DNA of 43,889 bases, from assembly GCA_947385425.1 (NCBI GenBank), contig CANDKY010000021.1, positions 1-43,889 on the forward strand, written 5' to 3'. This document shows, in pieces, positions 304-38,604 of the stretch. Each line of letters starts with the position of its first letter. Within the stretch, counting starts at the first letter, position 1. The notes under the pieces are model-generated. The model was not told the origin of the DNA, did not search any database, and saw nothing but the letters and a program-made list of their open reading frames with translations. Both the position numbers and the translations under genes were made by a program. Source of the DNA: an uncultured Lachnospiraceae bacterium (lineage in GTDB: Bacteria > Bacillota > Clostridia > Lachnospirales > Lachnospiraceae).

Positions 304-759
304 ATGGGAAAAGTATACGGTTATATCCGCGCCCTGGCTGACGGGCAGGATGTGGATAAGCAGATAGTTAAAATGCGTGAAATGCAGGTGATGGACAGGG
401 ATATTTTCATAGACAGGCAGGAGGATGGGGCGGATGCCTGTAAGAGCAGTTACAGGAGGCTTTTGCAAAAGCTGGAAGCCGGGGATCTGCTTTATATGAA
501 AAACCTTGACAGCCTGGGAAATGATTATGGGGAAATCGGGCGGCAGTGGAGGACGCTGACGAAAGAGAAAAAAGCAGATGTGGTAGTGCTGGATCTGCCG
601 CATGTGGACACCAGGCAGGGGAAGCAGCAATGCGATACCCTGGTGGAGGATATCGTGCTTGTTATGCTGGAATATTATGCGGATACGGAACAGGCGGCGC
701 GCGGGCAGAAGCGGAAAGAGGGGATTGAAGAGGCCGGGAGCCGCGGCGTATGTGATTAG
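304..759 (+). CDS. Serine-recombinase-like protein lacking catalytic residues
   Basis: The 151-residue protein follows the fold pattern of the resolvase catalytic domain: an N-terminal YGYIR strand, then a segment ending LEAGD, then LDSLGND, and a helix near residue 125 matching the resolvase E-helix. The catalytic serine position of the YxRVS motif reads L (YIRAL). The LDRLGR motif reads LDSLGN, so both active-site arginines are lost. There is no C-terminal DNA-binding domain. Strand-exchange activity is therefore very unlikely, and a regulatory or structural role is more plausible. An AGGAAG ribosome site lies 8 bases before the ATG. It is the first gene of the co-oriented locus and ends 24 bases before the next start. 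The fold assignment is from motif recognition, the loss of catalysis is read directly, and its role is unknown. Confidence 0.7.
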   Translation: MGKVYGYIRALADGQDVDKQIVKMREMQVMDRDIFIDRQEDGADACKSSYRRLLQKLEAGDLLYMKNLDSLGNDYGEIGRQWRTLTKEKKADVVVLDLPHVDTRQGKQQCDTLVEDIVLVMLEYYADTEQAARGQKRKEGIEEAGSRGVCD

Positions 760-4850: not shown

Positions 4851-4879
4851 TTTATTCAGGCAGGGAAGGCAGAAACGGA

Positions 4880-7241: not shown

Positions 7242-7279
7242 TTTAAGCAGGCATGTTGACAGGAAGGGATTGTGACATA

Positions 7280-7936
7280 ATGTTGTTAGCAATATATGGA
7301 GCACACGGTCTGGCAAAGGAAGTATACATTATTGCAAAAAAAATAAACAATATACAACATAAATGGAATGAGTACTGCTTCATAGATGATGTAAATGAGA
7401 TAGTTGAGCTTCATGGAATAAAAGTTTATAAATTCAGTGAACTTATTCGGCAAAAAGACAAAAATGATGTAGAAATAGTAATAGCGGTAGGGGAACCCAG
7501 TCTCAGAAGCTTTATGTACGGTAAAGTAAAAGGAGAAGGTATCCGTTTGGCAACGCTGATACATCCAGGAGTGTATATTGATGAAACTACAGTCATTGGA
7601 GAAGGAGCCGTTATAGCAGAAGGCGTAACGGTAACTGCTGATGTAGAAATTGGTGCAAATACATATGTACAGCCTCATGCGGTGATTGGCCATGACATAA
7701 AGATTGGCCGGCATACAGTGATTGGTTCGAACTGCCAGATTGGCGGGGGAGATAGAATTGGCGACAGAGTATTTTTGGGGTTTTTATCGGGGACTACAGA
7801 TCATATTTCTATAGGCAATGACGCTATCATATCTGCCGGATCTATTGTTTTCAGAGAACTGCCCGAAGGGGTTATTGCGGTTGGTAATCCTGCGAGAATT
7901 GTAAAGAAAAATGAGAATAAAAAAGTTTTTAAGTAA
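7280..7936 (+). CDS. PglD/NeuD-like sugar acyltransferase
   Basis: The protein has 218 residues. Residues 1-85 form the Rossmann-like PglD N-terminal domain (LLAIYGAHGLAKE glycine loop, then FIDD). Residues about 95-205 are a left-handed beta-helix of hexapeptide repeats (IGEGAVIAEGVTV..., IGANTYVQPHAVIGHD). VGNPARIVK closes the helix as in NeuD/PglD. These enzymes acetylate, or otherwise acylate, an amino group on a nucleotide-linked amino sugar using acyl-CoA; acyl-ACP is possible here because a carrier protein is encoded nearby. ATG 7280 has GGAAGGGA 10 bases upstream and is preferred over 7253. It is the first gene of the lower-GC core, right after the MITE-like element. Confidence 0.85.
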   Translation: MLLAIYGAHGLAKEVYIIAKKINNIQHKWNEYCFIDDVNEIVELHGIKVYKFSELIRQKDKNDVEIVIAVGEPSLRSFMYGKVKGEGIRLATLIHPGVYIDETTVIGEGAVIAEGVTVTADVEIGANTYVQPHAVIGHDIKIGRHTVIGSNCQIGGGDRIGDRVFLGFLSGTTDHISIGNDAIISAGSIVFRELPEGVIAVGNPARIVKKNENKKVFK

Positions 7937-7952
7937 AAATGAGGACAATTAG

Positions 7953-8423
7953 ATGGAAAAAAGTCTTAAATTCGATTCGATGGGAATACAGCAATGTCAG
8001 AGAAACAGATATCCTTTGCTTTTTATTGACAAAATAGAAGAGGCTGTTCCTATGGAGAGAGCATATGCAATTAAAAATTTTTCGTATAACGAATGGTTTT
8101 TTCCGGCGCATTTTGATGATGAACCCAATGTACCCGGGTTTGTTCAAGTTGAAGCTTTGGCACAAACATTTTTGATGACATTTCTATGTGTGGATGAGTA
8201 TAGAGGGATGAAGACTGCATTTGTCAGTATTGACAGAACAAAATTTAAAAGGAAAATTGTTCCTGGGGACAGATTAGAGATATATGCCACCCTGGATTCT
8301 TTTAATCGGGGAGTCGCTAAAGGGCATGTAGAAAGTTATGTAGATGGGGAGGCAGCTTGTTCAGCCAGCCTTGTTGTTGCAATTCCGGATGTAATAAACA
8401 GATATAGGCCAGAGGCAAAATAA
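7953..8423 (+). CDS. FabZ-like hotdog 3-hydroxyacyl-ACP dehydratase
   Basis: In this 156-residue single hotdog fold, RYPLLFID matches the FabZ RYPFLLVD strand. FFPAHFDDEPNVPGFVQVEALAQ holds the catalytic His (AHF) and the Glu of the central helix (VEALAQ). It would dehydrate, or act in reverse on, a 3-hydroxyacyl thioester. It is not in a fatty-acid operon (no fabF, fabD, acc) but sits with an ACP, an SDR and a LuxE-LuxC protein, so a dedicated acyl pathway is likely. It starts 16 bases after the PglD-like gene and ends 1 base before the transketolase gene, indicating one transcript. Confidence 0.85.
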   Translation: MEKSLKFDSMGIQQCQRNRYPLLFIDKIEEAVPMERAYAIKNFSYNEWFFPAHFDDEPNVPGFVQVEALAQTFLMTFLCVDEYRGMKTAFVSIDRTKFKRKIVPGDRLEIYATLDSFNRGVAKGHVESYVDGEAACSASLVVAIPDVINRYRPEAK

Positions 8424-8424
8424 T

Positions 8425-9243
8425 ATGACAAGTAAAGAAATAGAAAAGTTGGCGCTTGCTGTGCGTAAGAGAATCATAAAGATGGCGTATGAGTGCAATA
8501 ATAATGTCCATTTAGGCGGGGCGTTATCTATGGTAGATATTCTAGCGGTTCTGTATGGAGATATATTATGTAATATTGGCGGTTCTTATGAAGAGCGTGA
8601 TAAGTTTATCCTTAGTAAGGGACACGGGGCATTGGCATTGTTTGCAACGCTTGGAGAGATGGGAATTATACCGGAAGAACGTCTGCATACTTATCTGTCA
8701 GATGGCAGTAACCTTTGTGCACATCCTGTAATGGAACCTGAAATCGGGATTGAGGCGTCCAATGGAAGCCTGGGGCAGGGTATTTCCATGGCGGTAGGGA
8801 TAGCCCTTTCTGCTAAGCGTAAGAAAAGAGATTATCAGGTATACACAATTATTGGCAATGGGGAAAGTGATGAAGGCCTGGTGTGGGAAGCATTGGCATC
8901 AGCGTCACATTTTCAATTGGATAATTTCACTCTTATATTAGACGATAATAAATTTCAGAATGACGGTGCAAGTGAAACGGTTATGTATTATCCGAATTAT
9001 AAAGAGCGGCTGCATGCATTTGGGTTTGATGCAGCAGAAATAGACGGCCATAATATTTCAGAAATATGTAAAGCGCTGAGAAGCCGCCATACAGAAAAAA
9101 AACCGAAGGCAGTTGTTGCTAATACAATAAAAGGATATGGGATCTCTTTTATGGAAAATGATAATAGCTGGCACCATAACCGCCTGACACAGAAAAATTA
9201 TGAGCAGGCAATGAGGGAACTGGAAGAATCAATATGGAGATAA
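8425..9243 (+). CDS. Transketolase N-terminal subunit, pair 1
   Basis: The 272-residue protein is the thiamine-diphosphate-binding half of a split transketolase. SKGHGALALFA and the TPP/Mg region GNGESDEG...LDDNKFQ are recognisable. The usual GDG of the TPP motif reads GNG, so a metal-ligand Asp is Asn; the second TPP protein at 13305 keeps GDG. Together with the next gene it would move a two-carbon ketol unit between a ketose and an aldehyde or thioester acceptor. Split transketolases occur in sugar and antibiotic pathways, including ones that load a glycolyl unit on a carrier protein. It overlaps the next gene by 10 bases. Confidence 0.88.
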   Translation: MTSKEIEKLALAVRKRIIKMAYECNNNVHLGGALSMVDILAVLYGDILCNIGGSYEERDKFILSKGHGALALFATLGEMGIIPEERLHTYLSDGSNLCAHPVMEPEIGIEASNGSLGQGISMAVGIALSAKRKKRDYQVYTIIGNGESDEGLVWEALASASHFQLDNFTLILDDNKFQNDGASETVMYYPNYKERLHAFGFDAAEIDGHNISEICKALRSRHTEKKPKAVVANTIKGYGISFMENDNSWHHNRLTQKNYEQAMRELEESIWR

Positions 9244-10196
9244 AGAAATCAGAAATCAAAAGATGGGCGGCAATGGGTCCAAGGGCTGCATTTGGAATGG
9301 GCATTTTAAAATTATATGAAGAGGAACCGGATTTTTTCGTTATGTCGGCTGATTTAGGAAGCTCGTCAGGGTTAGCGAGGTTTTATTCCAAGTATCCGGA
9401 AAGTTTTGTAAATGTCGGAATCGCAGAGCAAAATTTAATAGGTGTTGCAGCAGGGCTGGCGAAGGATGGGACGCCGGTATTTGCTACTTCCTTTGCACCG
9501 TTCATCTCAATGAGGGCAGGCGAGCAGATCCGCATGAATATGGGATATATGCACTTAAATATAAAGGCAGTAGGATTAGGCAGCGGGCTGGCAATGAACA
9601 CATTGGGGGCATCCCATTTTGGATTGGAAGATATAGCTGTTATGCGTACAATTCCCGGAATGACAATCCTGTGCCCATCTGATGGTCTGCAGATTGTAAA
9701 ATGTATTGAGGCTTCAAAGCACTACAATGGACCTGTATATATACGTTTATCGGGAGGTTCTGATATTATTTATGACGACAATTTCAATTATGAAATTGGT
9801 AAATCTATCATCTTAAAAAGGGGAAACAAGGTAGCCCTGGTTGGTGCAGGCTCCGTTGTTTCACAGGCGTTAAAAGCAGCGGATATGCTTGAAAAGCAGG
9901 GGATTTCGTGTACAGTCGTTGATATGCACACATTAAAACCATTAGATGAAGATACATTAAATTCATTGATAGAGTATGAACTTATTGTAACAATAGAAGA
10001 ACATACAATTATTGGCGGATTGGGCAGTGCAGTTGCAGAATACTATGCGTGCGGCGGCAAAAGGCCAAGGCAGGTAATGATTGGGATAAATGATTTTTAT
10101 CCTCATCCGGGAAGTTATGAATACTTATTGAATGAGTGTGGGCTGACACCGGAAAAAATTACGGAAAGAGTTATGGAAGTGTATGTTGGAAAATAA
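9234..10196 (+). CDS. Transketolase C-terminal subunit, pair 1
   Basis: The 320-residue protein carries the pyrimidine-binding and C-terminal domains. VNVGIAEQNLIGVAAGLA holds the catalytic Glu that activates TPP, RLSGG lies in the substrate region, and VVDMHTLKPLD and IEEHTIIGGLG are typical of the C-terminal domain. It would form an alpha2beta2 enzyme with the preceding subunit, whose stop it overlaps. It is followed by a 14-base overlap with the SDR gene, so this set is translationally linked. Confidence 0.9.
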   Translation: MEIKKSEIKRWAAMGPRAAFGMGILKLYEEEPDFFVMSADLGSSSGLARFYSKYPESFVNVGIAEQNLIGVAAGLAKDGTPVFATSFAPFISMRAGEQIRMNMGYMHLNIKAVGLGSGLAMNTLGASHFGLEDIAVMRTIPGMTILCPSDGLQIVKCIEASKHYNGPVYIRLSGGSDIIYDDNFNYEIGKSIILKRGNKVALVGAGSVVSQALKAADMLEKQGISCTVVDMHTLKPLDEDTLNSLIEYELIVTIEEHTIIGGLGSAVAEYYACGGKRPRQVMIGINDFYPHPGSYEYLLNECGLTPEKITERVMEVYVGK

Positions 10197-10929
10197 AAAT
10201 ATTGTCATTACAGGAAGTAACAGGGGAATAGGGTATGCTGTTTTAAAGGCATGTGCAGAAAACGGTGCGAATGTGTTTGCTTGTATGCGTAATAAATCAG
10301 ATGAAATGGAAAGGAAATTACATAATATCTCAGAGGAATATGAGGTCAATATCTATCCGGTTTATTTTGACTTGTGCGATGAACAGATGATTAAAGATGG
10401 CGTATCTGAAATTTTAAAATATAAAATACCGATTTCGGGGATTGTAAATAATGCAGGCATTGCCGGGGCAAAAAGTTTATTTCTAATGACAACAATGGAA
10501 GATATACGGAGTACATTTGATGTTAATTTCTTTGGACATGTTCTTTTAACGCAGCGCCTGCTAAAAAATATGATCCGGAATAAGTGCGGCTCTATTGTAA
10601 ATATAAGTTCAGCGGCTGCAATAGATGGGGATCCGGCACAATTTGGGTATATTACCAGTAAGGCAGCAATGATTGGTGCGGTAAAAAAGTGGGCGAATGA
10701 ATTGGGCAGTTATGGAATAAGAGCAAACGCGGTAGCGCCAGGAGTTACAAATACAGATATGGTTTCGGAAATGAGAGAGGAACTATTAGCCGATACAGTT
10801 GGGAATACGGCAATGCATCGAATAGGGCAGCCTGATGAGATTGCTAAAACGGTAGTATATTTGTTGTCTGATTACAGTAGTTATATGACGGGGCAGACAG
10901 TAAGAGTAGATGGCGGCTTACATCCGTAG
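10183..10929 (+). CDS. Short-chain dehydrogenase/reductase (FabG-like)
   Basis: The protein is 248 residues, usual for classical SDRs. Near the N-terminus TGSNRGIG binds the dinucleotide, followed by NNAG near residue 90. The catalytic Ser lies in NISSAAA and the Tyr-Lys pair in GYITSKAA. VAPGVTNTDM and the C-terminal GQTVRVDGGL also match FabG-type enzymes. It would reduce a 3-ketoacyl thioester or oxidise/reduce a sugar-derived ketone. The location between transketolase, ACP and FabZ-like genes fits modification of a keto product formed by ketol transfer. It overlaps the transketolase subunit gene by 14 bases and is followed by a 98-base gap. Confidence 0.85.
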   Translation: MLENKNIVITGSNRGIGYAVLKACAENGANVFACMRNKSDEMERKLHNISEEYEVNIYPVYFDLCDEQMIKDGVSEILKYKIPISGIVNNAGIAGAKSLFLMTTMEDIRSTFDVNFFGHVLLTQRLLKNMIRNKCGSIVNISSAAAIDGDPAQFGYITSKAAMIGAVKKWANELGSYGIRANAVAPGVTNTDMVSEMREELLADTVGNTAMHRIGQPDEIAKTVVYLLSDYSSYMTGQTVRVDGGLHP

Positions 10930-11027
10930 GCGGTATTTTATGTTTAAATGCATAACAGATTGTAATTAATGAAAAATGTAATGAAATTAGTATATATTAA
11001 GGCGGAATAAAAGGTTGGGATTATTGT

Positions 11028-12071
11028 ATGGAACTGAAAGATAATAAAAGAGTTCTCGAAAAAATGAGGGCTTTTGACAGATATATCAGCGAGCATGGCG
11101 GTGTAGGCACGGCACCAAGAGGACTATTGCTTAATTATAGTAATGCATGTAATTTCAAGTGCCAGCAATGTTTTACAGAGTCGCCAGGCAAACCGTTTTG
11201 CGGGACATTATCGTTAGACGATATAAGGAAATTGGCTGATGAAGCAGACGAATTGGGTATGTATGAAATTCTGATTGAAGGCGGAGAGCCATTAGTATGT
11301 AAAGAATTGTATGATATTATCAATATATTTGGCTCAGACCGCTTTTATATAGAAATGACTTCTAACGGATATCTGTTAACCAGGCAGATTGCGGAGAAAT
11401 TAAAACAGGCGGGTATGTCGCGGGTTTCGATTAGTTTGGACAGCACAAAGCCTGAAATACATGACGGATACCGGGGCGTAAAGGGTGCGTATGACCATGC
11501 ATTGAAAGCTTTGAAAAATGCAAAAGATGCTGGCATGCAGGCGTCCGTTAATTTCCTGGTAGGGCATTATAATATTCATTCGGGAGAAGTGGAAGAGATT
11601 GCAGAGTTCTGCCAGGAACATGATTATCATTTTTCGCTAGTGCTGGCTGTCCCGACCGGAAATTGGAAAGGGAAATTTGACGTGATGCTTACTTCGGAGG
11701 ATGCTGCATATTTGGAAAGCCTGAGAGGGAAGTATAAGCATTTTTGGAGGGATATATGGCCCCCGTTACCCAATAAGAAAGTACAGATAAGCGGATGCAT
11801 AGCGGTGAACCGTCCTTACATCAATCCATATGGTGATGTATTGCCATGTTCCTATTTACATATGAAACTTGGCAATATCAAAGAACAGCCATTGAAAGAA
11901 ATTATGGAATATGGTTTTTCGTATCCATATTTCAGTGAGCAGCATTACTGCTGTTATGCAGGGGAAGATGTCCGGTTTATGAAACAGTATTGCATGCATG
12001 ATATGTCAATATTGGAGCCTATTGATATTAAAGAAGTATTAAATAATAGAGGAGAAAATAACAATGACTAA
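11028..12071 (+). CDS. Radical SAM/SPASM-type protein A
   Basis: In this 347-residue protein, CNFKCQQC near residue 42 is the CX3CX2C iron-sulfur motif. EGGEPLVCKE is the GGE SAM-binding motif, and SISLDSTKPEIHDGYRG is the conserved strand of the MoaA/SPASM group. Later cysteines (near SGCIAVN, LPCSYLH, YCCYAG and QYCMHD) could bind an auxiliary cluster. Its stop overlaps the ACP gene start by 8 bases, so it may act on ACP-bound or small-molecule substrates of this pathway. That coupling is direct; the reaction is unknown. The ribosome site (AAAAGG) is weak and 13 bases away. Confidence 0.82.
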   Translation: MELKDNKRVLEKMRAFDRYISEHGGVGTAPRGLLLNYSNACNFKCQQCFTESPGKPFCGTLSLDDIRKLADEADELGMYEILIEGGEPLVCKELYDIINIFGSDRFYIEMTSNGYLLTRQIAEKLKQAGMSRVSISLDSTKPEIHDGYRGVKGAYDHALKALKNAKDAGMQASVNFLVGHYNIHSGEVEEIAEFCQEHDYHFSLVLAVPTGNWKGKFDVMLTSEDAAYLESLRGKYKHFWRDIWPPLPNKKVQISGCIAVNRPYINPYGDVLPCSYLHMKLGNIKEQPLKEIMEYGFSYPYFSEQHYCCYAGEDVRFMKQYCMHDMSILEPIDIKEVLNNRGENNND

Positions 12072-12303
12072 TCTGGAAAAGTATATTGCAGCGTTTGTAG
12101 AAGCGTTAGGAGTAGATGCGGATGTTGTGAATTCTACATTAAGCTATCAGTCTGTTGCTGAATGGGATTCCGTAGGACACATGAGTTTGATTGCAGAATT
12201 AGAAAATACTTTTGATATTGAGATGGAGACAGATGATGTAGTGGATTTTAGTTCTTTTGATACAGGGATAGGAATTTTAAAAAAATATGGGATAGATGTG
12301 TAG
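12064..12303 (+). CDS. Acyl carrier protein
   Basis: The protein has 79 residues and is acidic, with a four-helix carrier-protein pattern. EWDSVGHMSLI holds Ser36 in the DSxG phosphopantetheine attachment motif, and ELENTFDIEM is the usual helix after it. A strong GAGGAG ribosome site precedes the ATG. It would carry an acyl or ketol-derived group as a thioester for the nearby FabZ-like, SDR, ligase and LuxE-LuxC proteins. It sits between two radical SAM genes. It is not in a fatty-acid synthesis operon, so a dedicated carrier is more likely than the housekeeping ACP. Confidence 0.92.
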   Translation: MTNLEKYIAAFVEALGVDADVVNSTLSYQSVAEWDSVGHMSLIAELENTFDIEMETDDVVDFSSFDTGIGILKKYGIDV

Positions 12304-12331
12304 TTTTTATTTCATAGAAAGGAAAAGCCAA

Positions 12332-13312
12332 ATGAAGGAATTGACTCCACCAATTAGGGCAGATAGAAAACCTTTATGGGAATTGCTGCCCCTTGAACAG
12401 CCACTTAGGATAAATATAGATCCATGTGATGTGTGTAATATTAAATGCGATTTTTGTTTCCAAAGTAAGAGTAAGGAATTTAAAGGAAATATAATGACTG
12501 TCGAGATGTTCGAGAAAATAATTACGCAGTTGAAGGAATTTGCTGACCCAATAAATGTGATACATCTTTATGGTCTGGGAGAGCCTTTAATAAACAAGAA
12601 TATCCCTCAGTTTATTCGAATGGTTAAGAGTGAAAATGTGGGAAAGGAGGTAAAGACTACAACAAATGGTACTTTACTTACATATTCGCTAATAGATGAA
12701 TTGATGGAAGCTGGATTGGATGAATTGACTATTTCGCTAAATGGGTTAAGTGATGAGGATTTCGAGAGAATTACAAGAGTAAAGATAAATTTTGAGAATG
12801 TGTTTGACAATATTAAGTATCTATATGCTCATAAACGGAACTGTCATATACACATTAAGATAATTGGAGATTATTTTTCAGAGGAAGAGAAGAGTTTATT
12901 TATAAACCAAATTGGAGATTATGCGGATACCATAAATATAGACGGAACTACGAACCATTGGTCAGGGTTTAAAATTACGGCAAAACAACAGAAACAGTAT
13001 AATATTGGTGAAGGATCATTTAAAGAATGGCCTGTATGTGCGTTTTGCTTTTATGAGTTAGCGGTTCACAGTGATGGTTCTGTAAGTCCATGTTCCGTAG
13101 ACTGGCAAAAAGACAAACAAAATCTGGGGAATATAACGGAGTCGTCATTAAAGGAAATATGGAATTCTGAAAAAAGGAAAGAGATATTGGTAAGTTTCCT
13201 TGAAGGGACAAAGAATCCATATATAGCGTGCCGGGAATGCGAGTATCCTAATTCGGGAGCCGGTGTAAATTTAGAACCATATAAAAAGGAGTTATTAAAA
13301 AAGTATGTATGA
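12332..13312 (+). CDS. Radical SAM/SPASM-type protein B
   Basis: The protein has 326 residues. CDVCNIKCDFC near residue 28 includes the CX3CX2C motif, YGLGEPLINKN takes the place of the GGE motif (GLGEP) and LTISLNGLSDEDFERITR matches the MoaA/SPASM group. WPVCAFCFYE, SPCSVDW and CRECEYPN near the C-terminus are likely auxiliary-cluster cysteines. ATG 12332 lies 8 bases after GAAAGGAAA and is preferred over 12296, which would overlap the ACP gene. It overlaps the next transketolase subunit gene by 8 bases. Its substrate is unknown; it is a distant relative of protein A. Confidence 0.82.
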   Translation: MKELTPPIRADRKPLWELLPLEQPLRINIDPCDVCNIKCDFCFQSKSKEFKGNIMTVEMFEKIITQLKEFADPINVIHLYGLGEPLINKNIPQFIRMVKSENVGKEVKTTTNGTLLTYSLIDELMEAGLDELTISLNGLSDEDFERITRVKINFENVFDNIKYLYAHKRNCHIHIKIIGDYFSEEEKSLFINQIGDYADTINIDGTTNHWSGFKITAKQQKQYNIGEGSFKEWPVCAFCFYELAVHSDGSVSPCSVDWQKDKQNLGNITESSLKEIWNSEKRKEILVSFLEGTKNPYIACRECEYPNSGAGVNLEPYKKELLKKYV

Positions 13313-14075
13313 AAAAGATATCAGAGAACAAAAAGTGAATATTATTGAAATGGTGCATACTACCAAAATCGCGGCACATATGTCGCCCGCTATGGCAATG
13401 CTGGAAATATTTAATGTTTTGCTGCGAGATATCATGGATATAAAAAACGGGATTGATGATGAAAGAAGCGATAAGCTTGTCCTTAGTAATGGACATACGG
13501 CACTGGCATTATATGCGGTATATCAGACACTTGGAATAATCACGAAAGAAGATTTTTATACATATAAAAAGAAAGACAGCAGGTTTGGAGTCCATCAGGA
13601 TCGCCACCATACGCCGGGAACCATCATTTCTACGGGCTCACTTGGGCACGGGCTTCCTAATGCCATAGGCGTTGCATATGCATGGAAGCTTCAAGGGAAA
13701 AGCAACAGAATTTTTATCACTGTCGGGGATGGGGAGTTAAATGAGGGAAGCATTTGGGAAAGCGTTATTTTTGCTGCCAGGATGAAGCTGGATAATGTGT
13801 GCTGTATTGTCGATGATAATAAGTCGACAGAATACATGCCGGATATTATTGGAAAATTCAGGGCATTTGAGTGGGATGCGGTGGAAATTGACGGGCATGA
13901 TGAGGAGTGTCTGCGGGATGCATTATCGAAACAGCCAAAAGGCAGACCATATGTTGTCGTAGCTGATACGGTTAAAGGAAATGGAGTGGAATTGTTCGAA
14001 AATAATCACGCAGAATGGCATGAGAAGGCTGTTTCAGATGAGGATTATGCAATAATTATGGAGGAATTGCGCTGA
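13305..14075 (+). CDS. Transketolase N-terminal subunit, pair 2
   Basis: The 256-residue TPP-binding half has LSNGHTALALYA, STGSLGHGLPNAIG and VGDGELNEG...VDDNKST. It is clearly homologous to the 8425 protein but divergent, shorter, and retains the canonical GDG metal motif. With the following gene it forms a second complete split transketolase in the same operon. The presence of two distinct pairs suggests two different ketol transfers or a different donor and acceptor. It starts inside the end of radical SAM gene B. Confidence 0.88.
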   Translation: MYEKDIREQKVNIIEMVHTTKIAAHMSPAMAMLEIFNVLLRDIMDIKNGIDDERSDKLVLSNGHTALALYAVYQTLGIITKEDFYTYKKKDSRFGVHQDRHHTPGTIISTGSLGHGLPNAIGVAYAWKLQGKSNRIFITVGDGELNEGSIWESVIFAARMKLDNVCCIVDDNKSTEYMPDIIGKFRAFEWDAVEIDGHDEECLRDALSKQPKGRPYVVVADTVKGNGVELFENNHAEWHEKAVSDEDYAIIMEELR

Positions 14076-14076
14076 T

Positions 14077-14964
14077 ATGAATTTAATGACGTCAGAGTTT
14101 TATACGACAATAGAGAATGTGCTGGCAAAGGATGAGCGGGTAGTAGTTATTTTAGGTGTTTCAGGTGTAGGGATATGTGTGGATTTGTCCAAGAAATTTC
14201 CGGGGCGTTTTATTGATGCCGGGATCATGGAACAGTCAATTATAGGGATTGCATCAGGTATGTCGGTTGCGGGTATGGTTCCGGTTGTCTATGGACAATC
14301 AACTTTTATGATTGAACGTCCATATGAACAGCTTAAAGTTGATTTTGGATATCAAAAGCTAGGGGGAAATTTTGTTGTATATGGTGGCAGTACGGAATGT
14401 GGAACAATAGGGGCAACACATTGCTGCCCGGCCGCTTTGTCTGTTTTGTCTGTAATACCGGGAATGGAGATTGTTGTCCCGGGCAGCCCATATGAGTTTA
14501 CTTCACTTTTCATGGAGTCGTATGATAATGGCAATCCTACCATATACAGGACATCTATATTTTGCAATTCATATAATGGCTCGGTTGCATTTGGCAGGGC
14601 GAATGTCGTAAAGAAGGGAAGTAAGGCAACAATAATAGCGATAGGGCCGATGCTGGAACTGGCTATGCGGGCATTAGGGGATGAAGATGTCACGGTTTTA
14701 TACTATACGACAGTGGCACCATTTGATACGGCTGCTTTGCAGTCGAATTTTGTAAATGATCGGTTATTGCTCATGGAACCAGCATACCAGGGAGGCATTA
14801 TGCCTCAGGTATTAAAGGCTTTGCATGATAAAAAGATAAAGGCAGATTTTGTGGGATATCCTCATGAGTTTATTACGAATCATGGGTACGTCGCTGAGAA
14901 TGCGCCAATGTATGGGATGACAGCAGAGGCGGTAAGAAAGAAATATAAAGAATTAATTCAATAG
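14077..14964 (+). CDS. Transketolase C-terminal subunit, pair 2
   Basis: The protein has 295 residues. IDAGIMEQSIIGIASGMS contains the catalytic Glu, and the remaining pattern of pyrimidine domain and C-terminal Rossmann domain (TIIAIGPMLELA) follows the family. It is about 25 residues shorter than its counterpart at 9234, mostly in loops. It starts 1 base after the stop of its partner. The gap to the next gene is 8 bases. Confidence 0.87.
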   Translation: MNLMTSEFYTTIENVLAKDERVVVILGVSGVGICVDLSKKFPGRFIDAGIMEQSIIGIASGMSVAGMVPVVYGQSTFMIERPYEQLKVDFGYQKLGGNFVVYGGSTECGTIGATHCCPAALSVLSVIPGMEIVVPGSPYEFTSLFMESYDNGNPTIYRTSIFCNSYNGSVAFGRANVVKKGSKATIIAIGPMLELAMRALGDEDVTVLYYTTVAPFDTAALQSNFVNDRLLLMEPAYQGGIMPQVLKALHDKKIKADFVGYPHEFITNHGYVAENAPMYGMTAEAVRKKYKELIQ

Positions 14965-14972
14965 GTGACAGG

Positions 14973-15893
14973 ATGCGGGTAGGAGTAACCGGGGGAACGG
15001 GATTTATAGGGCAATATTTGCTCAGAGATTATGGAAAGGACTATGATTTTGTAGTTCCGGTCAGAGATAGAAAAAGAATTATAAAGGAAGGGATAAGTGC
15101 CCGGCTTGTAGAGAGCGATTATACGGTTGACAGTCTGAAAAAAGTATTCAAAGGCTGTGAAGCGGTAATCCACCTGGCGGCAAAAGGTATGCCTAAAAAC
15201 AGGGCTCCTTTAAAACTGGAGGATTACATATCAAATGTTACGGTAAATGCCAGTGTTTTTGAAGCATGTAAGGAGAGTGGAATTACCAATGTTATAAATG
15301 CGTCTTCCAAAGCCGTATGGGGCAGCCGGATACCGGCAGATATCCTGAAGGAAAATGAAAGAACTGCGCCGGAGGATGAATATGGTGTGAGTAAGCTTTG
15401 CGGAGAAGTGCTTGCGGAATTTTATAACAATAATTATGGAATGAGGATTAAGAGTTACAGAATGGGAGAGATATGCGGCATTGACTTAAGCAGAGGAATG
15501 CTGAACCCGTTTTGGTCAGTACTTTTAAATGCTTCTGTGAATGGAAAGCCAATACCGGTTTATGGAAAGGGGAGTGGCGGAAGAGATTTGATTTATGTGA
15601 AGGATGTGACACGAGCCCTGGTTACGGGTTTGGGTAAGGGGATAAAGGGGATTTACAATATAGGATCCAATCAAATAACCACAAATCTGGAAATTGCAGA
15701 GGCATTTTGCAGAGTCTTTCATAATAAAAGCGGAATACAGTTACATCCGGAGAAAGAGGAATGGGGAACAAAGAAATGTTTAAATACTGAGAAAGCAAAA
15801 CAGGAATTTGGATTCGAGGCCCATTATGATTTAATGCGGATAGTGGAGGATATAAAAGAGGAATATTATAAACAGAAAGTAATTCAGGCATAG
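14973..15893 (+). CDS. NAD-dependent epimerase/dehydratase (extended SDR)
   Basis: In this 306-residue protein, VTGGTGFIGQYL is the NAD-binding loop and IHLAAKG the next conserved strand. ASSKAVWG and EYGVSKLCGE carry the catalytic Ser/Tyr/Lys, and IYVKDVTRA is typical of UDP-glucose-epimerase relatives. It acts on a nucleotide-linked sugar or on a hydroxy-keto product. Neighbouring genes cannot decide between epimerase, reductase and dehydratase. It begins 8 bases after the transketolase gene and ends 15 bases before the next. Confidence 0.85.
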   Translation: MRVGVTGGTGFIGQYLLRDYGKDYDFVVPVRDRKRIIKEGISARLVESDYTVDSLKKVFKGCEAVIHLAAKGMPKNRAPLKLEDYISNVTVNASVFEACKESGITNVINASSKAVWGSRIPADILKENERTAPEDEYGVSKLCGEVLAEFYNNNYGMRIKSYRMGEICGIDLSRGMLNPFWSVLLNASVNGKPIPVYGKGSGGRDLIYVKDVTRALVTGLGKGIKGIYNIGSNQITTNLEIAEAFCRVFHNKSGIQLHPEKEEWGTKKCLNTEKAKQEFGFEAHYDLMRIVEDIKEEYYKQKVIQA

Positions 15894-15908
15894 AAAAGGA
15901 GAGACATT

Positions 15909-16892
15909 GTGGGTGAAATACGTATAGTATTGTTTGGAGCCGGAGCTTTGGGAAAATTTCTTACCGGGCATATAAAGGGGAATATAAAAATAGTTGCGTA
16001 TTTAGTAACCGAGATAACTGGAGATGTGAATGGAATACCAGTTATTTCATTAGAACAATTGCAGCATATTGAATATGACTATATCGTAGTTGCTTTTGGG
16101 AATACAATAAAAGGCATTGAGATATTGGAAAAGGCGAATGTCCCGAAAAGGAAAATTGTCGGTTATGCGTATAGCGGACTCACTTATGAAGAAAATTTTC
16201 TGCAGAAAGAATGCAGCAGGCTTATACATGAAAAACTGTGTAATGAAAAAATCCCTGAGCTGTTTGAGGTTCCAGTAAAAGAGTATTATTTGTGCGGAAT
16301 GAATGTATTGGAAAATCAAGACGTTATAAAAAGGGATTTTGTAAGGGAACAGACGCTCTCTTTCCTTGCGGAAGAAATCCACAGGAAAAATATACAAGGG
16401 AGTGTTGCGGAAATTGGCGTATCAAAAGGTGAATTTGCCAGGAAGATTAATTTTCTCTTTCCAGACCGTAATCTTTATCTGTTTGACACCTATGAGGGGT
16501 TAAGTGAGAAAGATAAGGCTAAGGCTATAGAACTTGGCTGGGGAGAAAAGCAGTATGCACTGGATGAGACAGGGGTTACATTTGAAGAAGTATTGCAGAA
16601 TATGCCATACCGGGAGAAATGTATCGTGAAAAAAGGATATTTTCCGGATACCTTTGATTTAGAGGATATGTTTTCTTTTGTAAGCCTCGATATTGATTTT
16701 TATGATACAACGAAAAGAGGATTAGAGATGATATATCCCTGCCTCAGTAAAGGGGGATATATTATGGTGCATGATTTTAATAATTTATCATATGTTGAGT
16801 GTAAGAATGCCGTAACAGATTTTTGTGAAGAAAATAATGTGGCATACGTTCCGATCCCGGATGTGGGAGGAACAGCAGTTATAACTAAGTAG
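15909..16892 (+). CDS. TylF-type O-methyltransferase with N-terminal Rossmann-like domain
   Basis: Residues about 4-90 of 327 are the recurring Rossmann-like module (IVLFGAGALGKFL). Residues about 150-327 are a TylF/MycF-type macrocin O-methyltransferase: AEIGVSKGEFA binds SAM, LFDTYEGLSEKD and SLDIDFYDTTKRGLE carry the acidic metal-binding residues, and MVHDFNN is the usual motif after them. It probably methylates a sugar hydroxyl or related group. The start is GTG 15909 with AGGAGAG 5-6 bases upstream; no ATG fits. Confidence 0.82.
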   Translation: MGEIRIVLFGAGALGKFLTGHIKGNIKIVAYLVTEITGDVNGIPVISLEQLQHIEYDYIVVAFGNTIKGIEILEKANVPKRKIVGYAYSGLTYEENFLQKECSRLIHEKLCNEKIPELFEVPVKEYYLCGMNVLENQDVIKRDFVREQTLSFLAEEIHRKNIQGSVAEIGVSKGEFARKINFLFPDRNLYLFDTYEGLSEKDKAKAIELGWGEKQYALDETGVTFEEVLQNMPYREKCIVKKGYFPDTFDLEDMFSFVSLDIDFYDTTKRGLEMIYPCLSKGGYIMVHDFNNLSYVECKNAVTDFCEENNVAYVPIPDVGGTAVITK

Positions 16893-16934
16893 ACAGAGCT
16901 TCGGAATTCTGAAATGACATAAGGAGCACGATAA

Positions 16935-19247
16935 ATGGATTTTGAAAGATTATTGGAATACAAACCTTTTGAACTGTTAAAAGAGCAGAAAAAGGAACTT
17001 CTTACGGACAGGCTTAACAGCCTGACAAAACTGCATAAGGCTAAATGTCAGGAGTATGGTGAAGTTCTTGCTTGTATAGATGACAATAATACAGAATCAG
17101 ATTCTTATGAGAACCTGCCTTTTCTTCCTGTCAGGCTCTTTAAGGAATTATCATTAAAAAGTGTTCCTGATGAAGAAGTTATTAAGGTGTTGACATCTTC
17201 CGGGACTACCGGACAGGCGGTATCAAAGATATATTTGGATCGTGTGACAGCATCCAATCAACAGAAGGCTATGGTTAAAATTGTATCCGATTTTATAGGG
17301 GCTTCGCGTATGCCAATGATTATTATCGACTGTCCGTCTGTAGTGAAGGACCGCAGGATGTTTTCCGCACGCGGGGCGGGAATATTGGGATTTTCTATTT
17401 TCGGCTCCAGGAAGCTGTATGCACTGAATGATGATATGGGCATAAACTGGGCGGAACTGAAGGGATTTATTGAACAGCACAAAAATAAGAAGATATTCCT
17501 GTTTGGTTTTACATATATAATCTGGCAGCATTTTTACAAGGAATTGATAAGAATCAAAGAGGAAACGGGAGAGCGGGTTGATTTGGCCAATGCGATATTG
17601 GTACATGGCGGCGGCTGGAAGAAGCTTATTTCAGAATCCGTTTCTATGGAAGAATTCCATAACAGGATGAAAAATGTATGCGGACTTTCAGACATTCATG
17701 ATTATTACGGAATGGCAGAGCAGACAGGGTGTATTTATATGCAGTGTGAATGCGGACATTTGCACGCAAGCATTTTTTCGGATGTTATAGTCAGGAATCC
17801 AAGGGATTTTTCCGTATGCCCTGATGGGGAAAAAGGGATTATACAGGTGGTGTCTGCAATACCGGAGTCATATCCGGGCCACTCGCTGCTGACCGAAGAT
17901 GAAGGCATTATATTGGGGGAAGATGACTGCCCCTGCGGAAGAAAAGGGAAATATTTCCGCGTATCGGGACGGATGAAAAATGCAGAGCTCCGTGGGTGCA
18001 GCGATACTTATGCAAGTAACCATAGTATGGAGCAACAGATATGCCAAAAGGTTTCATATCTGGCAGGAAATATGTCAATAGTGCAGGGCATGGCAGCGGT
18101 ACCGCCATTGGCGCCCTTTTCAGATGTAGTAGTTGCGTTTCTGGATGATTTGTCCAGGGAATTGATGGCAGATAAATCAGCAAGGGGATATGCGGATGTA
18201 ATGACTTTGGGGTTCTGGCTGAGAAAGCCATCTATAAACGGACTAAAGAAAAAGTACCTGTGGGAGGAGCGTGAGAATATCAGGATTGGAAGAGGCATGG
18301 CATTCCATATAGCCCCCTCTAATGTCCCGGTGAATTTTGCCTATTCATTATTTACGGGATTATTGATGGGAAATGCAAATGTTGTCCGTGTGCCTTCCAA
18401 GGATTACCCGCAGGTGAAATTAATTGCACAGATGATAAATAAAGTACTTAAAAAACATGTGGGGCTGCAGCCATATATGGCATTGGTCCGGTATGGGAAG
18501 GATAAAGAGATCAATATGTTATTATCCTCTATGTGCAATGTGAGGATTATATGGGGTGGGGATTCCACGATAGAAGAATTCCGAAACATAAAACTGCCGC
18601 CGCGGGCTACGGAAATCACATTTGCAGACAGGTATTCGCTAGCAGTGATTGATTCGGAATATTATATGGATTGTGAAGATAAAAAGAAAATTGCAAGGGA
18701 TTTTTACAACGATACGTACCTGTCAGACCAGAATGCATGTACAAGCCCGCGTGTGGTAGTGTGGCACGGGGATAAGAAGGAAGAGGCAAAGCATGCGTTT
18801 TGGGATGCGTTACATGCATTGGTGCAGGAAAAATATCAGTTCCAGGCAATACAAAGCGTAGAGAAACTGGTAACTGCATGCAGGGCTGCCGCGGCAGGCA
18901 GCGCGGAGGGTATCGGGCATATCCGGGAGCTTCCGCATAATGATAATTTATTAATACGGCTGAAGGCGGATAAAATCAGAGCCGGCTTAATGAATTACCG
19001 TGGCAACAGCGGATATTTTTATGAATATGACTGTTCCGATTTTATGGAACTTAGGGACTTGTGCAATGATACACACTGTCAGACACTGGGGTATATTGGG
19101 GAAGCAGAAAAATTTATTTCGTTAGTGCAGTCAGGGATAAAAGGGCTGGATCGTGTGGTTCCAATTGGGCATATGATGGATTTTGATATGATATGGGATG
19201 GCTATAATTTGTGCGACAGTATGACAAGGACGGTTGCAGTCAGATAA
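16935..19247 (+). CDS. LuxE-LuxC fusion: acyl-protein synthetase and acyl reductase
   Basis: Residues 1 to about 365 of 770 match LuxE acyl-protein synthetase, with LTSSGTTGQ near residue 85 as nucleotide-binding loop and YGMAEQTG further on. Residues about 370-770 match LuxC acyl-CoA reductase: GRGMAFHIAPSNVPVNFAYS is the NADPH-binding region, and SDQNACTSP near residue 601 holds the catalytic Cys. In luminous bacteria LuxE activates a fatty acid, passes it to LuxC, and LuxC releases the aldehyde; luxAB are absent here. The fusion therefore would produce an aldehyde from an acid, CoA or ACP thioester. It sits directly before an AMP ligase gene. An aldehyde is a natural ketol acceptor for the nearby transketolases (inference). 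Confidence 0.85.
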   Translation: MDFERLLEYKPFELLKEQKKELLTDRLNSLTKLHKAKCQEYGEVLACIDDNNTESDSYENLPFLPVRLFKELSLKSVPDEEVIKVLTSSGTTGQAVSKIYLDRVTASNQQKAMVKIVSDFIGASRMPMIIIDCPSVVKDRRMFSARGAGILGFSIFGSRKLYALNDDMGINWAELKGFIEQHKNKKIFLFGFTYIIWQHFYKELIRIKEETGERVDLANAILVHGGGWKKLISESVSMEEFHNRMKNVCGLSDIHDYYGMAEQTGCIYMQCECGHLHASIFSDVIVRNPRDFSVCPDGEKGIIQVVSAIPESYPGHSLLTEDEGIILGEDDCPCGRKGKYFRVSGRMKNAELRGCSDTYASNHSMEQQICQKVSYLAGNMSIVQGMAAVPPLAPFSDVVVAFLDDLSRELMADKSARGYADVMTLGFWLRKPSINGLKKKYLWEERENIRIGRGMAFHIAPSNVPVNFAYSLFTGLLMGNANVVRVPSKDYPQVKLIAQMINKVLKKHVGLQPYMALVRYGKDKEINMLLSSMCNVRIIWGGDSTIEEFRNIKLPPRATEITFADRYSLAVIDSEYYMDCEDKKKIARDFYNDTYLSDQNACTSPRVVVWHGDKKEEAKHAFWDALHALVQEKYQFQAIQSVEKLVTACRAAAAGSAEGIGHIRELPHNDNLLIRLKADKIRAGLMNYRGNSGYFYEYDCSDFMELRDLCNDTHCQTLGYIGEAEKFISLVQSGIKGLDRVVPIGHMMDFDMIWDGYNLCDSMTRTVAVR

Positions 19248-19257
19248 GAGGGTGCTT

Positions 19258-20718
19258 ATGTGGGATTTAAAAAGGTATGATAAGTATATGGCAATTATTG
19301 ATGATAAAGGAGTACAGGTGCCATATCGTGATTTGGAAGCAGTACAGCAGAGGATTGCGGATAAGATAAAGCAACGTACTTTGGTGGTATCATTGTGCAG
19401 AAACAGTGTAGGGTCTGTGGCAGGATATGCAGCATTTTTAAATCTAAAAATAGTGCCTGTTTTATTAAATGCAAATTTGGATAATGTGCTGATGGAGAAT
19501 TTATTGTCGGTATACCAGCCGGCGTATATATGGGCGCCATCTGATATGGCATTAAAAGTGCCGCTTTCCGCTATGGAGGTGGTATGTTCCGAATATGATT
19601 ATTCATTATTTGAAACAAAATATGGAAAGGAACATTCACTATATAGCGAGCTGGGATTATTACTGACTACTTCGGGTTCTACCGGAAGCCCTAAATTTGT
19701 CAGGCAGAGTTATGCGAATATTTTATCCAATGCGCAATCCATCGTATCCTATTTAAAAATAGATGAAACGGAACGGCCAATTACGACCCTGCCAATGAAT
19801 TATACATATGGGCTTTCCATTATCAATAGCCATTTACTGGCAGGGGCAACGATCCTGGTGACAGATAAATCTTTGATGCAGAAGGAATTTTGGGAATTTT
19901 TTAAAGATCAGAAAGCTACTTCTTTTGGCGGGGTCCCCTATACTTATGAGATTTTGGACAGGCTTCATTTTACGGAAATGGATTTGCCGTATTGCCGGAC
20001 TATGACGCAGGCGGGCGGGAAACTGACAAAAGAATTACATGCCAAGTTTGCCAAATATGCGGCAGAAAACGGGAAACAGTTTGTTGTTATGTATGGCCAG
20101 TGTGAAGCTACCGCGCGGATGGGATATCTGCCGGCAAATATGGCGGTGGAGAAATGCGGCTCTATGGGGATTGCCATTCCCGGCGGGAAATTCAGACTGA
20201 TAGACGAGGATGGTTTGCAGATAAAAGAAGTAAATACAACAGGCGAGCTGGTATATGAGGGCGCTAACGTTACATTAGGGTATGCAGAGTGCGGGGAAGA
20301 TCTGGCACTGGGTGATGAGAGGAATGGAATCCTCCATACAGGTGATCTGGCTCTTTTTGATGATGACGGCTATTATTATATCGTGGGGCGAAAAAAAAGA
20401 TTTTTGAAGATTTATGGGAACCGTGTGAACCTAGATGAGATGGACCGTCTGATAAAAAGCGCTTTTGATGGAATAGACTGTGCAACTGCAGGAGTAGACG
20501 ACCGTTTATATGTTTTTATTACAATGGAGAGTCTGGCAGGGGATATAAAAAAATATATGTCAGGGAAAACCGGGTTAAACCCGGCTGCATTTGAGATAGT
20601 TGTTATAGAGGAAATACCTAAAAATGATGCAGGGAAGGTCTTGTATAAGGATTTAGAAAAATATTACGCAGCGGCAGTCCCTGATGATACGGATAATAGA
20701 AAGAGAAAAGCAGAATGA
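19258..20718 (+). CDS. AMP-forming acyl ligase (ANL superfamily)
   Basis: The 486-residue protein has TTSGSTGSPKFV (P-loop-like A3 motif), MYGQCEATARMG (adenine/acyl-binding A5), LHTGDLALFDDDGYYYIVGRKKR (A7-A8, hinge) and the catalytic C-terminal Lys in PKNDAGKVLYKDL. It activates a carboxylate as acyl-AMP and passes it to CoA or to the ACP encoded at 12064. ATG 19258 lies 5 bases after AAGAGGG and is preferred; a TTG at 19234 would overlap the LuxE-LuxC stop. Its own stop overlaps the DegT start in ATGA. The acid substrate is unknown. Confidence 0.87.
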   Translation: MWDLKRYDKYMAIIDDKGVQVPYRDLEAVQQRIADKIKQRTLVVSLCRNSVGSVAGYAAFLNLKIVPVLLNANLDNVLMENLLSVYQPAYIWAPSDMALKVPLSAMEVVCSEYDYSLFETKYGKEHSLYSELGLLLTTSGSTGSPKFVRQSYANILSNAQSIVSYLKIDETERPITTLPMNYTYGLSIINSHLLAGATILVTDKSLMQKEFWEFFKDQKATSFGGVPYTYEILDRLHFTEMDLPYCRTMTQAGGKLTKELHAKFAKYAAENGKQFVVMYGQCEATARMGYLPANMAVEKCGSMGIAIPGGKFRLIDEDGLQIKEVNTTGELVYEGANVTLGYAECGEDLALGDERNGILHTGDLALFDDDGYYYIVGRKKRFLKIYGNRVNLDEMDRLIKSAFDGIDCATAGVDDRLYVFITMESLAGDIKKYMSGKTGLNPAAFEIVVIEEIPKNDAGKVLYKDLEKYYAAAVPDDTDNRKRKAE

Positions 20719-21830
20719 AACCCAATAATATAATGGTCACGAGATCATCCATGCCGGATATGGAAGAGTATGTTGAGGAAATCAGGGAATTATGGGAATC
20801 CCATTGGCTGACAAACATGGGGGTAAAGCACCGGAAGCTTCAGGAAATGCTTTTGGAGTATTTGGAAGCAGACCATGTCGAATTGTTCACAAACGGGCAT
20901 ATGGCGCTGGAACTTACCTTGCAGTCCATGAACCTTCAAGGTGAAGTAATAACGACCCCTTTTACCTTTGCGTCAACGACGCATGCAATTGTCAGAAATG
21001 GGTTAGAGCCGGTATTCTGTGACATTAACCCGGTAGATTTTACGATAGATGTCTCAAAGATTGAGGAGCTGGTTACGGACCGAACGTCGGCGATCGTCCC
21101 CGTCCATATATATGGTAATATCTGCAATATTGAGGAGATAGAAAGAATTGCTGATAAATACGGGCTCAAGGTAATTTATGATGCGGCACATGCTTTCGGC
21201 GAGAAGTATAAAGGGAAGGGAATAGGGACGTTTGGGGATGCCTCCTGTTTTAGTTTCCATGCCACGAAAGTATTTAATACAATTGAAGGCGGCGCTGTCT
21301 GTTTCCGGGACAAGGATTTTGGGCGTATTTTGAGCGGTTTAAAGAATTTCGGGATAAAAGGGCCGGAGGAGGTTGACGGCGTTGGGGCAAATGCCAAAAT
21401 GAATGAGTTCTGCGCGGCAATGGGGATATGTAACCTGCGCCATATCGATGGGGAGATCGCGAAAAGGGGGGAAATAGTTGGGAAGTATCAAGAGTTATTA
21501 GGGGATTTGGAAGGGATTCAATTAAGCATGGTGCAGAAAGATGTACAGACCAATTACTCCTATTTCCCGGTCGTGATAGATGAGAAGCTGTTTGGATGCA
21601 GCAGAAATGAGGTATTTGCAGAATTGGGAAAGAGCGGGATTATGGCGAGGAAATATTTTTACCCGCTGACAAATACCTTTGGCTGTTTTCATGGGAAATA
21701 TAATCCAGATCAAACGCCAAATGCATTGCATATAAGTAAAAGAGTGATAACACTTCCTTTGTACGCAGATTTGCCATTGGAGGATGTGGAACGGATCTGT
21801 GGGATTATAAGAAAGAATTACCGGAAATAA
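20715..21830 (+). CDS. DegT/DnrJ/EryC1 PLP-dependent sugar aminotransferase
   Basis: The 371-residue protein follows the VioA/RffA-like pattern. FTNGHMALELTL binds the PLP phosphate, ITTPFTFASTTHAI and CDINPVDFTID follow, and IYDAAHAFG gives the Asp that contacts the PLP nitrogen. SFHATKVFNTIEGG near residue 184 carries the Schiff-base Lys. It transfers an amino group from Glu to a keto sugar or ketone, often a nucleotide-linked 4-keto-6-deoxysugar. No 4,6-dehydratase lies in the window, so the keto substrate comes from elsewhere or from the local ketol chemistry. A partial, decayed copy of its 3' end lies at 22940-23095. Confidence 0.92.
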   Translation: MKPNNIMVTRSSMPDMEEYVEEIRELWESHWLTNMGVKHRKLQEMLLEYLEADHVELFTNGHMALELTLQSMNLQGEVITTPFTFASTTHAIVRNGLEPVFCDINPVDFTIDVSKIEELVTDRTSAIVPVHIYGNICNIEEIERIADKYGLKVIYDAAHAFGEKYKGKGIGTFGDASCFSFHATKVFNTIEGGAVCFRDKDFGRILSGLKNFGIKGPEEVDGVGANAKMNEFCAAMGICNLRHIDGEIAKRGEIVGKYQELLGDLEGIQLSMVQKDVQTNYSYFPVVIDEKLFGCSRNEVFAELGKSGIMARKYFYPLTNTFGCFHGKYNPDQTPNALHISKRVITLPLYADLPLEDVERICGIIRKNYRK

Positions 21831-21871
21831 TGGCAGTAAATTTGTCAGAAAGCACGCTGGGAGGCAAGACT

Positions 21872-38529: not shown

Positions 38530-38604
38530 TATATCTTTGTTGAGAACAAGTGTATAAGTTATGGTGTCCGAAAATGCTCCAAGATGGGAATGAGAGGTAT
38601 CAAA

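Follow-up and report, generated by a model that had tools for sequence, protein, structure and literature searches.

The 43,889-base contig C21 (CANDKY010000021.1) of a draft genome from an uncultured Lachnospiraceae bacterium (GCA_947385425.1; 4.42 Mb, 198 contigs) was analysed over its entire length, which we call the window. Between positions 7953 and 21830 it encodes an acyl carrier protein (ACP), an AMP-forming acyl ligase, a LuxE-LuxC fusion, FabZ, a FabG-like short-chain dehydrogenase/reductase (SDR), two split transketolases (TK1 and TK2) and a DegT-family aminotransferase. We report here that transketolases (TKs) like TK1 are tied to a core of ACP, ligase, LuxE and LuxC, and that they form a clade of their own whose members have lost pocket residues of canonical transketolases; both observations are new. 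On balance we favour the view that these genes specify a carrier-protein module that furnishes a surface glycan with an unusual sugar or polyol substituent, in which an acid would be converted to an aldehyde and the aldehyde to a ketol-extended ketose. The initial annotation of this DNA had proposed the same order (acid, thioester, aldehyde, addition of a two-carbon ketol), and the cross-phylum co-occurrence of the genes and the pocket loss support it by inference.

Relatives of the locus were collected through LuxE (see below), and the TKs encoded beside this core are called module TKs. A maximum-likelihood tree was built from 90 rows of the TK half that comprises the pyrimidine and C-terminal domains (TKC), 21 of 111 rows having been removed beforehand as duplicates. 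The 43 module TKs, TK1 among them, form one branch with 100/99 support, and 45 other TKs fall outside it. The clade spans six phyla (Bacillota, Synergistota, Pseudomonadota, Spirochaetota, Melainabacteria and Bacteroidota) and includes the TK of a Rhizobium plasmid. A TK was classed as other if the stretch around it, often of only 4 kb, showed no LuxE within 12 kb; these TKs sit on other contigs or at least ~24 kb from known LuxE genes.

Pocket residues were mapped on the numbering of E. coli TktA, with TK2 and the TK of locus L065 excluded from the module counts (the latter lies near LuxE yet outside the clade, and has G461 and L469 but R520). H461, which we take to bind the substrate phosphate, D469 and R520 are each retained in none of the 43 module TKs. 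Position 461 is occupied by A (15), T (14), G (8), S (5) or L (1), position 469 by L (25), F (7), S (6), Q (2), A (2) or V (1), and position 520 by G (40), E (2) or D (1); position 385 reads S in 17, TK1 included, and otherwise F (11), Y (7), L (4), T (3) or H (1). The residues of thiamine diphosphate (ThDP) chemistry are retained, with E411 present in 43/43, H473 in 41/43, and H26, H66 and H261 in 45/45 of the ThDP-binding halves (TKN). In the 45 other TKs, position 461 is H or R in 35, D469 is retained in 36, and position 520 is R or K in 39 (R 35, K 4). This last figure was recounted seven residues after P513 because a misplaced gap in the alignment had lowered the raw column (R 14, K 4 of 45); the module count is identical both ways. 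Five module TKs from a separately drawn family sample show the same pocket loss, one of their five loci (L214) sharing stretches with locus L030.

Engineering papers (PMC7661550, PMC10787763) describe how changes at S385, D469 and R520 let E. coli TK use nonpolar and aromatic aldehydes when hydroxypyruvate is the donor; the S385Y/D469T/R520Q enzyme (PMC10787763) takes nonpolar aromatic aldehydes with that donor. We read the module TKs as putative transketolases for a free, nonpolar aldehyde of the type that LuxC would produce: residues for the sugar phosphate and hydroxyl are lost, as expected for an unphosphorylated aldehyde acceptor. TK2 stands apart, poorly placed on a long branch outside the module clade with the TK of L116 as its partner (35% identity), and TK2C finds matches in 3 of 291 genomes of the class at E<=1e-30, its own included. 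The nearer of the two TK2-like TKs in the class (L157, G160:C36) has no LuxE beside it; its neighbours are an NAD-epimerase, a DegT protein, an SDR, a DmpG-like aldolase and an acetolactate-synthase-like enzyme.

The association was also examined from the TK side. In a sample of 299 genomes of the family, nine TK1-type matches at E<=1e-80 (a cut set after seeing the gap between 1.4e-82 and 2.0e-74) fell in eight genomes, and all eight have LuxE; with the own genome excluded, 20 of the remaining 298 genomes have LuxE, and 7/7 TK1-type genomes belong to these 20 (P 2e-9). Seven of the nine matches lie within ~17 kb of LuxE, and all nine lack H461, D469 and R520. Ten weaker matches (down to 1e-70) come from genomes without a LuxE match, and three of the four that were read keep all three residues; the TK of L251, in the LuxE-less genome G334, has lost all three. 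The nearest relative, genome G404, encodes on one strand and over ~21.5 kb, with other genes interspersed, PglD, ACP, SDR, TK1N, TK1C (63% identity), DegT, the radical SAM enzyme rSAM1, FabZ, ligase, LuxE and LuxC.

A LuxE-LuxC core recurs across phyla

An alignment search of the genome collection with LuxE returned at least 567 relatives, and the best 80 were kept. Genes were counted within 10 kb of LuxE in the 58 well-flanked loci (>=7 kb upstream and 2.5 kb downstream), the 22 loci with short flanks being excluded; gene families were labelled with hidden Markov models built from these same loci, so the counts lean on the labelled families. The AMP ligase and LuxC are present in 58/58 loci, ACP in 55 and SDR in 45. 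These are followed by DegT (32), TK (28), PglD (26), NeuB (16), FabZ (15), a thioesterase (14), an acetolactate-synthase-like ThDP enzyme (12), KAS III (11), an L-LDH-like protein (10), a metallo-beta-lactamase (MBL)-fold hydrolase (7), DmpG (3) and a FucI-like isomerase (3). The initial annotation had made its proposal depend on co-occurrence of the enzymes in other genomes; because the set does recur across phyla, the proposal stands on this point. On a Rhizobium plasmid, TK, ACP, ligase, DegT, LuxE, LuxC, SDR and FabZ fall within ~12 kb (SDR and FabZ on the opposite strand), and on a Deinococcus plasmid the core lies next to glycosyltransferases. Among the matches listed, the closest LuxE relatives in named genomes are mostly from Lachnospiraceae, and LuxE and LuxC are also fused in 6 of the 80 relatives. 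The Kosakonia ligase-LuxE region had no match in the E. coli genomes searched.

A TK near LuxE in 28 of 58 loci is far above chance, since the background density of non-module TKs is ~0.011 per 20 kb. This density comes from 14 genomes or records with LuxE loci (~38.9 Mb by rounded sizes), in which 21 of 31 TK matches were non-module. In the own family, 21 of 299 genomes have LuxE at E<=1e-60, and in the class 19 of 291 at E<=1e-20; both counts include the own genome, and several of the latter have a distant LuxE only. With other queries, and counting the centres, the Kosakonia class gave 2/229 and the Bacteroides phylum 3/247. From the own family, 19 of the 20 non-own LuxE genomes were fetched as an evenly drawn sample, in which L217 and L221 are on the same contigs as L048 and L076 and L214 repeats part of L030; in the class sample L150, and partly L149, repeat L043. 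The 19 family loci have the ligase in 18, ACP in 16 and TK in 5 of the stretches read. The TK is therefore a common variant of the module and not a fixed part of it.

Presumed catalytic residues, chosen from general family knowledge, were scored among relatives (loci L008-L091). They are almost invariant: the ACP Ser (71/71), the ligase Lys (80/80), the LuxE adenylation-motif Ser and acyl-carrying Cys355 (88/88 each), the LuxC nucleophilic Cys (87/88), the FabZ His (28/29) and Glu (29/29), and the SDR Tyr and Lys (78/80 each). The window LuxE-LuxC is proposed to reduce an acid to an aldehyde.

TK, NeuB, DmpG and acetolactate-synthase-like enzymes use carbonyl acceptors, mostly aldehydes, and at least one of these carboligases lies within 10 kb in 44 of the 58 loci; in L081 DmpG is accompanied by a DmpF-like partner. 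Loci that lack a TK often have one of the other carboligases in its place. The acetolactate-synthase-like enzyme (12 loci) and TK (28) share none of the 58 loci (p 1.3e-4; co-occurrence p values here and below are guides only, because related loci are not independent). Several relatives have a thioesterase between ligase and LuxE. The order of events in the Lux system is LuxD-LuxE-LuxC, LuxD having the thioesterase role, and by analogy the arrangement in these relatives would fit that order. In L028 and L033, three consecutive FabZ-like genes are followed by an acetolactate-synthase-like enzyme, NeuB and the core, with another FabZ-like gene after LuxC in L028.

We also considered whether the thioesterase (14/58) and the MBL-fold hydrolase (7/58) near the ligase replace one another. 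No locus had both (p 0.18), and with the own-family sample added (17 and 13 loci) p was 0.06 over 77 loci and 0.03 over 76, one double-counted locus removed; mutual exclusion was rejected on these weak statistics.

Proposed route and its alternatives

We suggest the following route. The ligase would load an acid onto the dedicated ACP, where FabZ and the FabG-like SDR may edit the acyl chain, joined in some relatives by KAS III, an acyltransferase or a FabK-like reductase. The acid would then be released, re-activated and reduced to the aldehyde by the fused LuxE-LuxC, as in the LuxCDE fatty acid reductase. TK1 would add a two-carbon ketol, most likely from hydroxypyruvate, giving R-CHOH-CO-CH2OH. 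SDR reduction, isomerisation or radical SAM chemistry could follow before the product enters the glycan. A second ketol-transfer unit, acting on a sugar nucleotide, may be formed by TK2, rSAM2 and the epimerase.

More tentatively, the module may exemplify a general route to sugars from carboxylic acids, in which a carrier-bound acid is edited, released, reduced by LuxE-LuxC and extended by exchangeable carboligases (TK adding C2, NeuB or DmpG C3, the acetolactate-synthase-like enzyme C2). Where a TK or LuxE-LuxC set is present twice, there may be more than one round. In at least six phyla the route would supply surface glycans with hybrid acyl-ketose or higher deoxy sugars, and its TKs would be natural counterparts of engineered aldehyde-accepting enzymes. 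Such a route would join fatty-acid-type and sugar chemistry in one pathway, and would give a concrete, testable role to genes that are currently interpreted in flagellin islands as fatty acid synthesis. It also predicts that a natural clade of split TKs accepts unphosphorylated, nonpolar aldehydes, with direct use in biocatalysis.

Several observations weigh against the aldehyde-to-ketose reading. No carboligase lies within 10 kb of LuxE in 14 of the 58 loci, and only 5 of the 19 evenly drawn family loci have a TK in the stretch. Exclusion between carboligases is not absolute, since L148 has TK, an acetolactate-synthase-like enzyme and NeuB, and L149 and L150 combine TK, an acetolactate-synthase-like enzyme and DmpG over a longer stretch. 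One TK1-type TK (G465) lies ~27 kb from LuxE on the same contig, and the 20-kb stretch of another, remote one in G561 contains no LuxE. Pocket loss also occurs in non-module TKs, including the own-genome copies on contigs C12 (none of the three residues kept) and C49 (R520 only), and it would hinder phosphorylated donors too. TK1N has Asn in place of the metal ligand Asp155, as found in 8 of 45 module TKN halves. The window LuxE and LuxC score far under their NCBIfam equivalog cut-offs (60.6 vs 550 and 39.4 vs 750 bits), and a thioesterase of either recognised family is absent from the window. Finally, a FucI-like isomerase lies near the TK in three close relatives of TK1 (L039, L040 and L050) and would suit a ketose product, to which it lends weak support because four non-module TKs have one too.

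The DegT protein bears on what else the locus might make. Its best matches are sugar-nucleotide aminotransferases, DesI first (295.6 bits against an NCBIfam equivalog cut-off of 650, still top of 11 listed families), and only three of the eight loci whose DegT scores >=400 bits against the window protein have a TK. The earlier proposal that DegT aminates the ketose is thus not supported, and DegT more likely makes an amino sugar. This suits a rival in which an unusual short acyl group, made by ACP, ligase, FabZ and SDR, is transferred by the PglD-like enzyme to an amino sugar formed by the epimerase/dehydratase and DegT, while LuxE-LuxC and the TKs provide the acid or some separate sugar. The PglD gene of the window lies immediately before FabZ, and PglD occurs in 26/58 relatives; on the other side, LuxC is expected from its family to give aldehydes, not acyl donors, and DegT and PglD are unassociated among the 58 loci (p 1.0). 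We regard this pathway as unlikely, though less so than the rivals below. Weak NCBIfam matches to cispentacin Amc proteins were set aside as far under the cut-offs.

The published reading of flagellin islands, by which the core supplies a fatty acyl group or fatty aldehyde for a fatty acid or liposugar, would make the TKs accessory. In its favour are KAS III in 11/58 loci, a protein with an acyltransferase domain in L050 and one of the NMO family, presumably FabK-like, in L057, but the altered-pocket TK clade and the alternative carboligases suggest extension of the aldehyde and not its use as such, and we judge this reading improbable. The initial annotation also noted that split TKs can feed glycolyl units to a carrier protein. 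In a scheme of the NapB/NapD and QncN/QncL/QncM type, a two-carbon unit derived from a ketose would be oxidised onto the ACP. Split TKs and ACPs are indeed neighbours in the window and many relatives. Loading of this kind is disfavoured by the missing lipoyl arm, the single PF00364 biotin/lipoyl match of the genome lying on contig C3 and none on C21, and by the loss of the residues for ketose phosphates from the module pocket, so that we consider it very improbable. Least credible of all is that ordinary pentose-phosphate transketolases sit in the cluster by chance: family matches and ThDP residues are of transketolase type, but the module TKs form a separate clade and the genome has four more TKs outside the window (contigs C4, C12, C49 and C106), the C4 copy keeping H461, D469 and R520.

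Gene layout of the window

All enzymes of the FabZ-to-DegT interval are present, complete and on the + strand, with families confirmed by Pfam and NCBIfam. Their earlier description as one overlapping set is essentially right, because the gaps between the 15 genes from FabZ to FkbM (7953-22924, all + strand) run from -14 to +98 nt; its count of three radical SAM proteins in the locus also holds, two inside the interval and one outside. LuxE and LuxC are a single fused open reading frame (ORF) of 770 aa. FabZ scores 114.7 against an NCBIfam cut-off of 113 (NF000582), barely over it, and is under the cut-off of TIGR01750. The rSAM1 family also occurs in L037, L057, L059 and L077, and in G404 (587 bits). 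The ThDP metal-site motif GDG reads GNG in eight module TKN halves: those of L039, L040, L044, L050, L021, L030 and L077 and the window TK1N.

Table 1. Genes of the module and its immediate surroundings in the window
Feature	Positions	Strand	Basis and remarks
Third radical SAM gene	4820..6082		Outside the FabZ-DegT interval
PglD-like hexapeptide acyltransferase, candidate N/O-acyltransferase	7253..7936	+	Pfam PglD_N and Hexapep
FabZ-type 3-hydroxyacyl-ACP dehydratase	7953..8423	+	Pfam FabA; His and Glu conserved
TK1N, ThDP-binding half of split transketolase 1	8425..9243	+	Pfam Transketolase_N; best PDB match split TK 6yak
TK1C, pyrimidine and C-terminal half of transketolase 1	9234..10196	+	G461, L469, G520 (E. 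coli TktA numbering); in module clade
FabG-like SDR	10183..10929	+	Pfam, NCBIfam
rSAM1, radical SAM/SPASM enzyme	11028..12071	+	Pfam; recurrent partner of TK and FabZ
ACP, WDS phosphopantetheine site	12064..12303	+	Pfam PP-binding
rSAM2, radical SAM/SPASM enzyme	12296..13312	+	Pfam
TK2N, ThDP-binding half of transketolase 2	13305..14075	+	Pfam
TK2C	14077..14964	+	Outside module clade; phosphate pocket also lost (G461, I469, I520)
NAD-dependent epimerase/dehydratase, sugar-nucleotide type	14973..15893	+	Pfam, NCBIfam; absent from initial annotation
TylF-family methyltransferase	15909..16892	+	Pfam; absent from initial annotation
LuxE-LuxC fusion, acyl-protein synthetase and acyl reductase	16935..19247	+	Pfam LuxE and LuxC; PDB 7xc6 chains E and A
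AMP-forming acyl ligase, proposed ACP loader	19234..20718	+	Pfam AMP-binding
DegT/DesI-like aminotransferase, probably sugar-nucleotide branch	20715..21830	+	Pfam; best family match DesI
FkbM-family methyltransferase	21830..22924	+	Pfam, NCBIfam; absent from initial annotation

The remainder of the contig is largely a surface-glycan cluster, with RgpF, WbsX, glycosyltransferases of families 2 and 11, WcbI and several methyltransferases. No NeuB/Pse or Maf family member was found among the 40 window ORFs scanned. Two large ORFs of the glycan cluster (3555-4850 and 38584-39948) have no Pfam match even at E 1, and the contig end carries a Uma2-type endonuclease-like gene (40443-41000) and a chemotaxis receptor (41794-43668).

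A second TK cassette lies elsewhere in the genome (L241, C12:3900-23800) beside ADP-heptose-type genes, and consists of a SIS isomerase, an NAD-epimerase, a kinase-cytidylyltransferase fusion, two radical SAM proteins, TKN and TKC. In L237 (G812), an NAD-epimerase, a kinase-cytidylyltransferase fusion, one radical SAM-like protein, TKN and TKC come right after a LuxE core. A Resolvase (serine-recombinase) N-terminal domain precedes both glycan clusters of the genome (window 304-759; L241 1880-2515), and cassette switching is possible.

Comparison with known systems

The closest precedents for the core are flagellin glycosylation islands. For Aeromonas group II islands (98 strains; PMC7874193), an ACP/FabG/AMP-synthetase/LuxE/LuxC set is reported and interpreted as fatty acid synthesis, possibly for a liposugar, with fatty acids channelled into a fatty aldehyde; PMC4875605 gives the same gene set and reading for Enterobacteriaceae islands (LuxE in 73 strains). 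The word transketolase does not occur in the main texts of these two papers. In the open literature (subscription papers mostly not covered) we found no paper linking a TK to this core. The claim of an undescribed route thus stands for the TK hybrid and is limited to it, because the core has already been printed for these islands. All five of their genes stand together in the window; unlike those cores, it has no flagellin on its contig. Flagellin had been named as the target of the pathway, which is unproven: the seven flagellin matches of the genome are on six other contigs, and because the window is the whole of C21, flagellar linkage can be viewed only up to the contig end at 43889. The target may be flagellin or a polysaccharide. 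The flagellin glycan of Aeromonas piscicola AH-3, a strain whose island carries the core, has an unassigned 102-Da moiety besides a 376-Da linking sugar. The module is a candidate source for unassigned glycan masses such as this one; that the 102-Da moiety comes from it is a guess.

The LuxE and LuxC domains of the window match the LuxC-LuxE fatty acid reductase (PDB 7xc6) by sequence, with conserved cysteines. The window version differs in being fused, in having its own ACP and ligase and in scoring far under the NCBIfam cut-offs. Some module relatives add a thioesterase, a role that LuxD holds in the Lux system.

With respect to the transketolases, TK1 shares with the canonical enzyme its ThDP residues, save for D155N in TK1N, but not the H461/D469/R520 recognition set. 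The glycolyl systems NapB/NapD and QncN/QncL/QncM (PMC6335953 and PMC7570522) combine a two-part TK with an ACP, as in the window, and QncL and SclQ4 carry a lipoyl-acyltransferase part of which the window has none. The Carboxydothermus enzyme (6YAK; PMC7661550) is a two-gene TK like TK1 and is reported also to take bulky aldehydes with hydroxypyruvate; unlike the module TKs, it is described there as doing so without any specificity-changing substitution. The engineered E. coli TK 3M (S385Y/D469T/R520Q; PMC10787763) is altered at the same positions as the module TKs. Where TK 3M is a laboratory mutant, the module TKs are a natural clade, mainly with L469 and G520, in which 17 of 43 members, TK1 included, still have S385.

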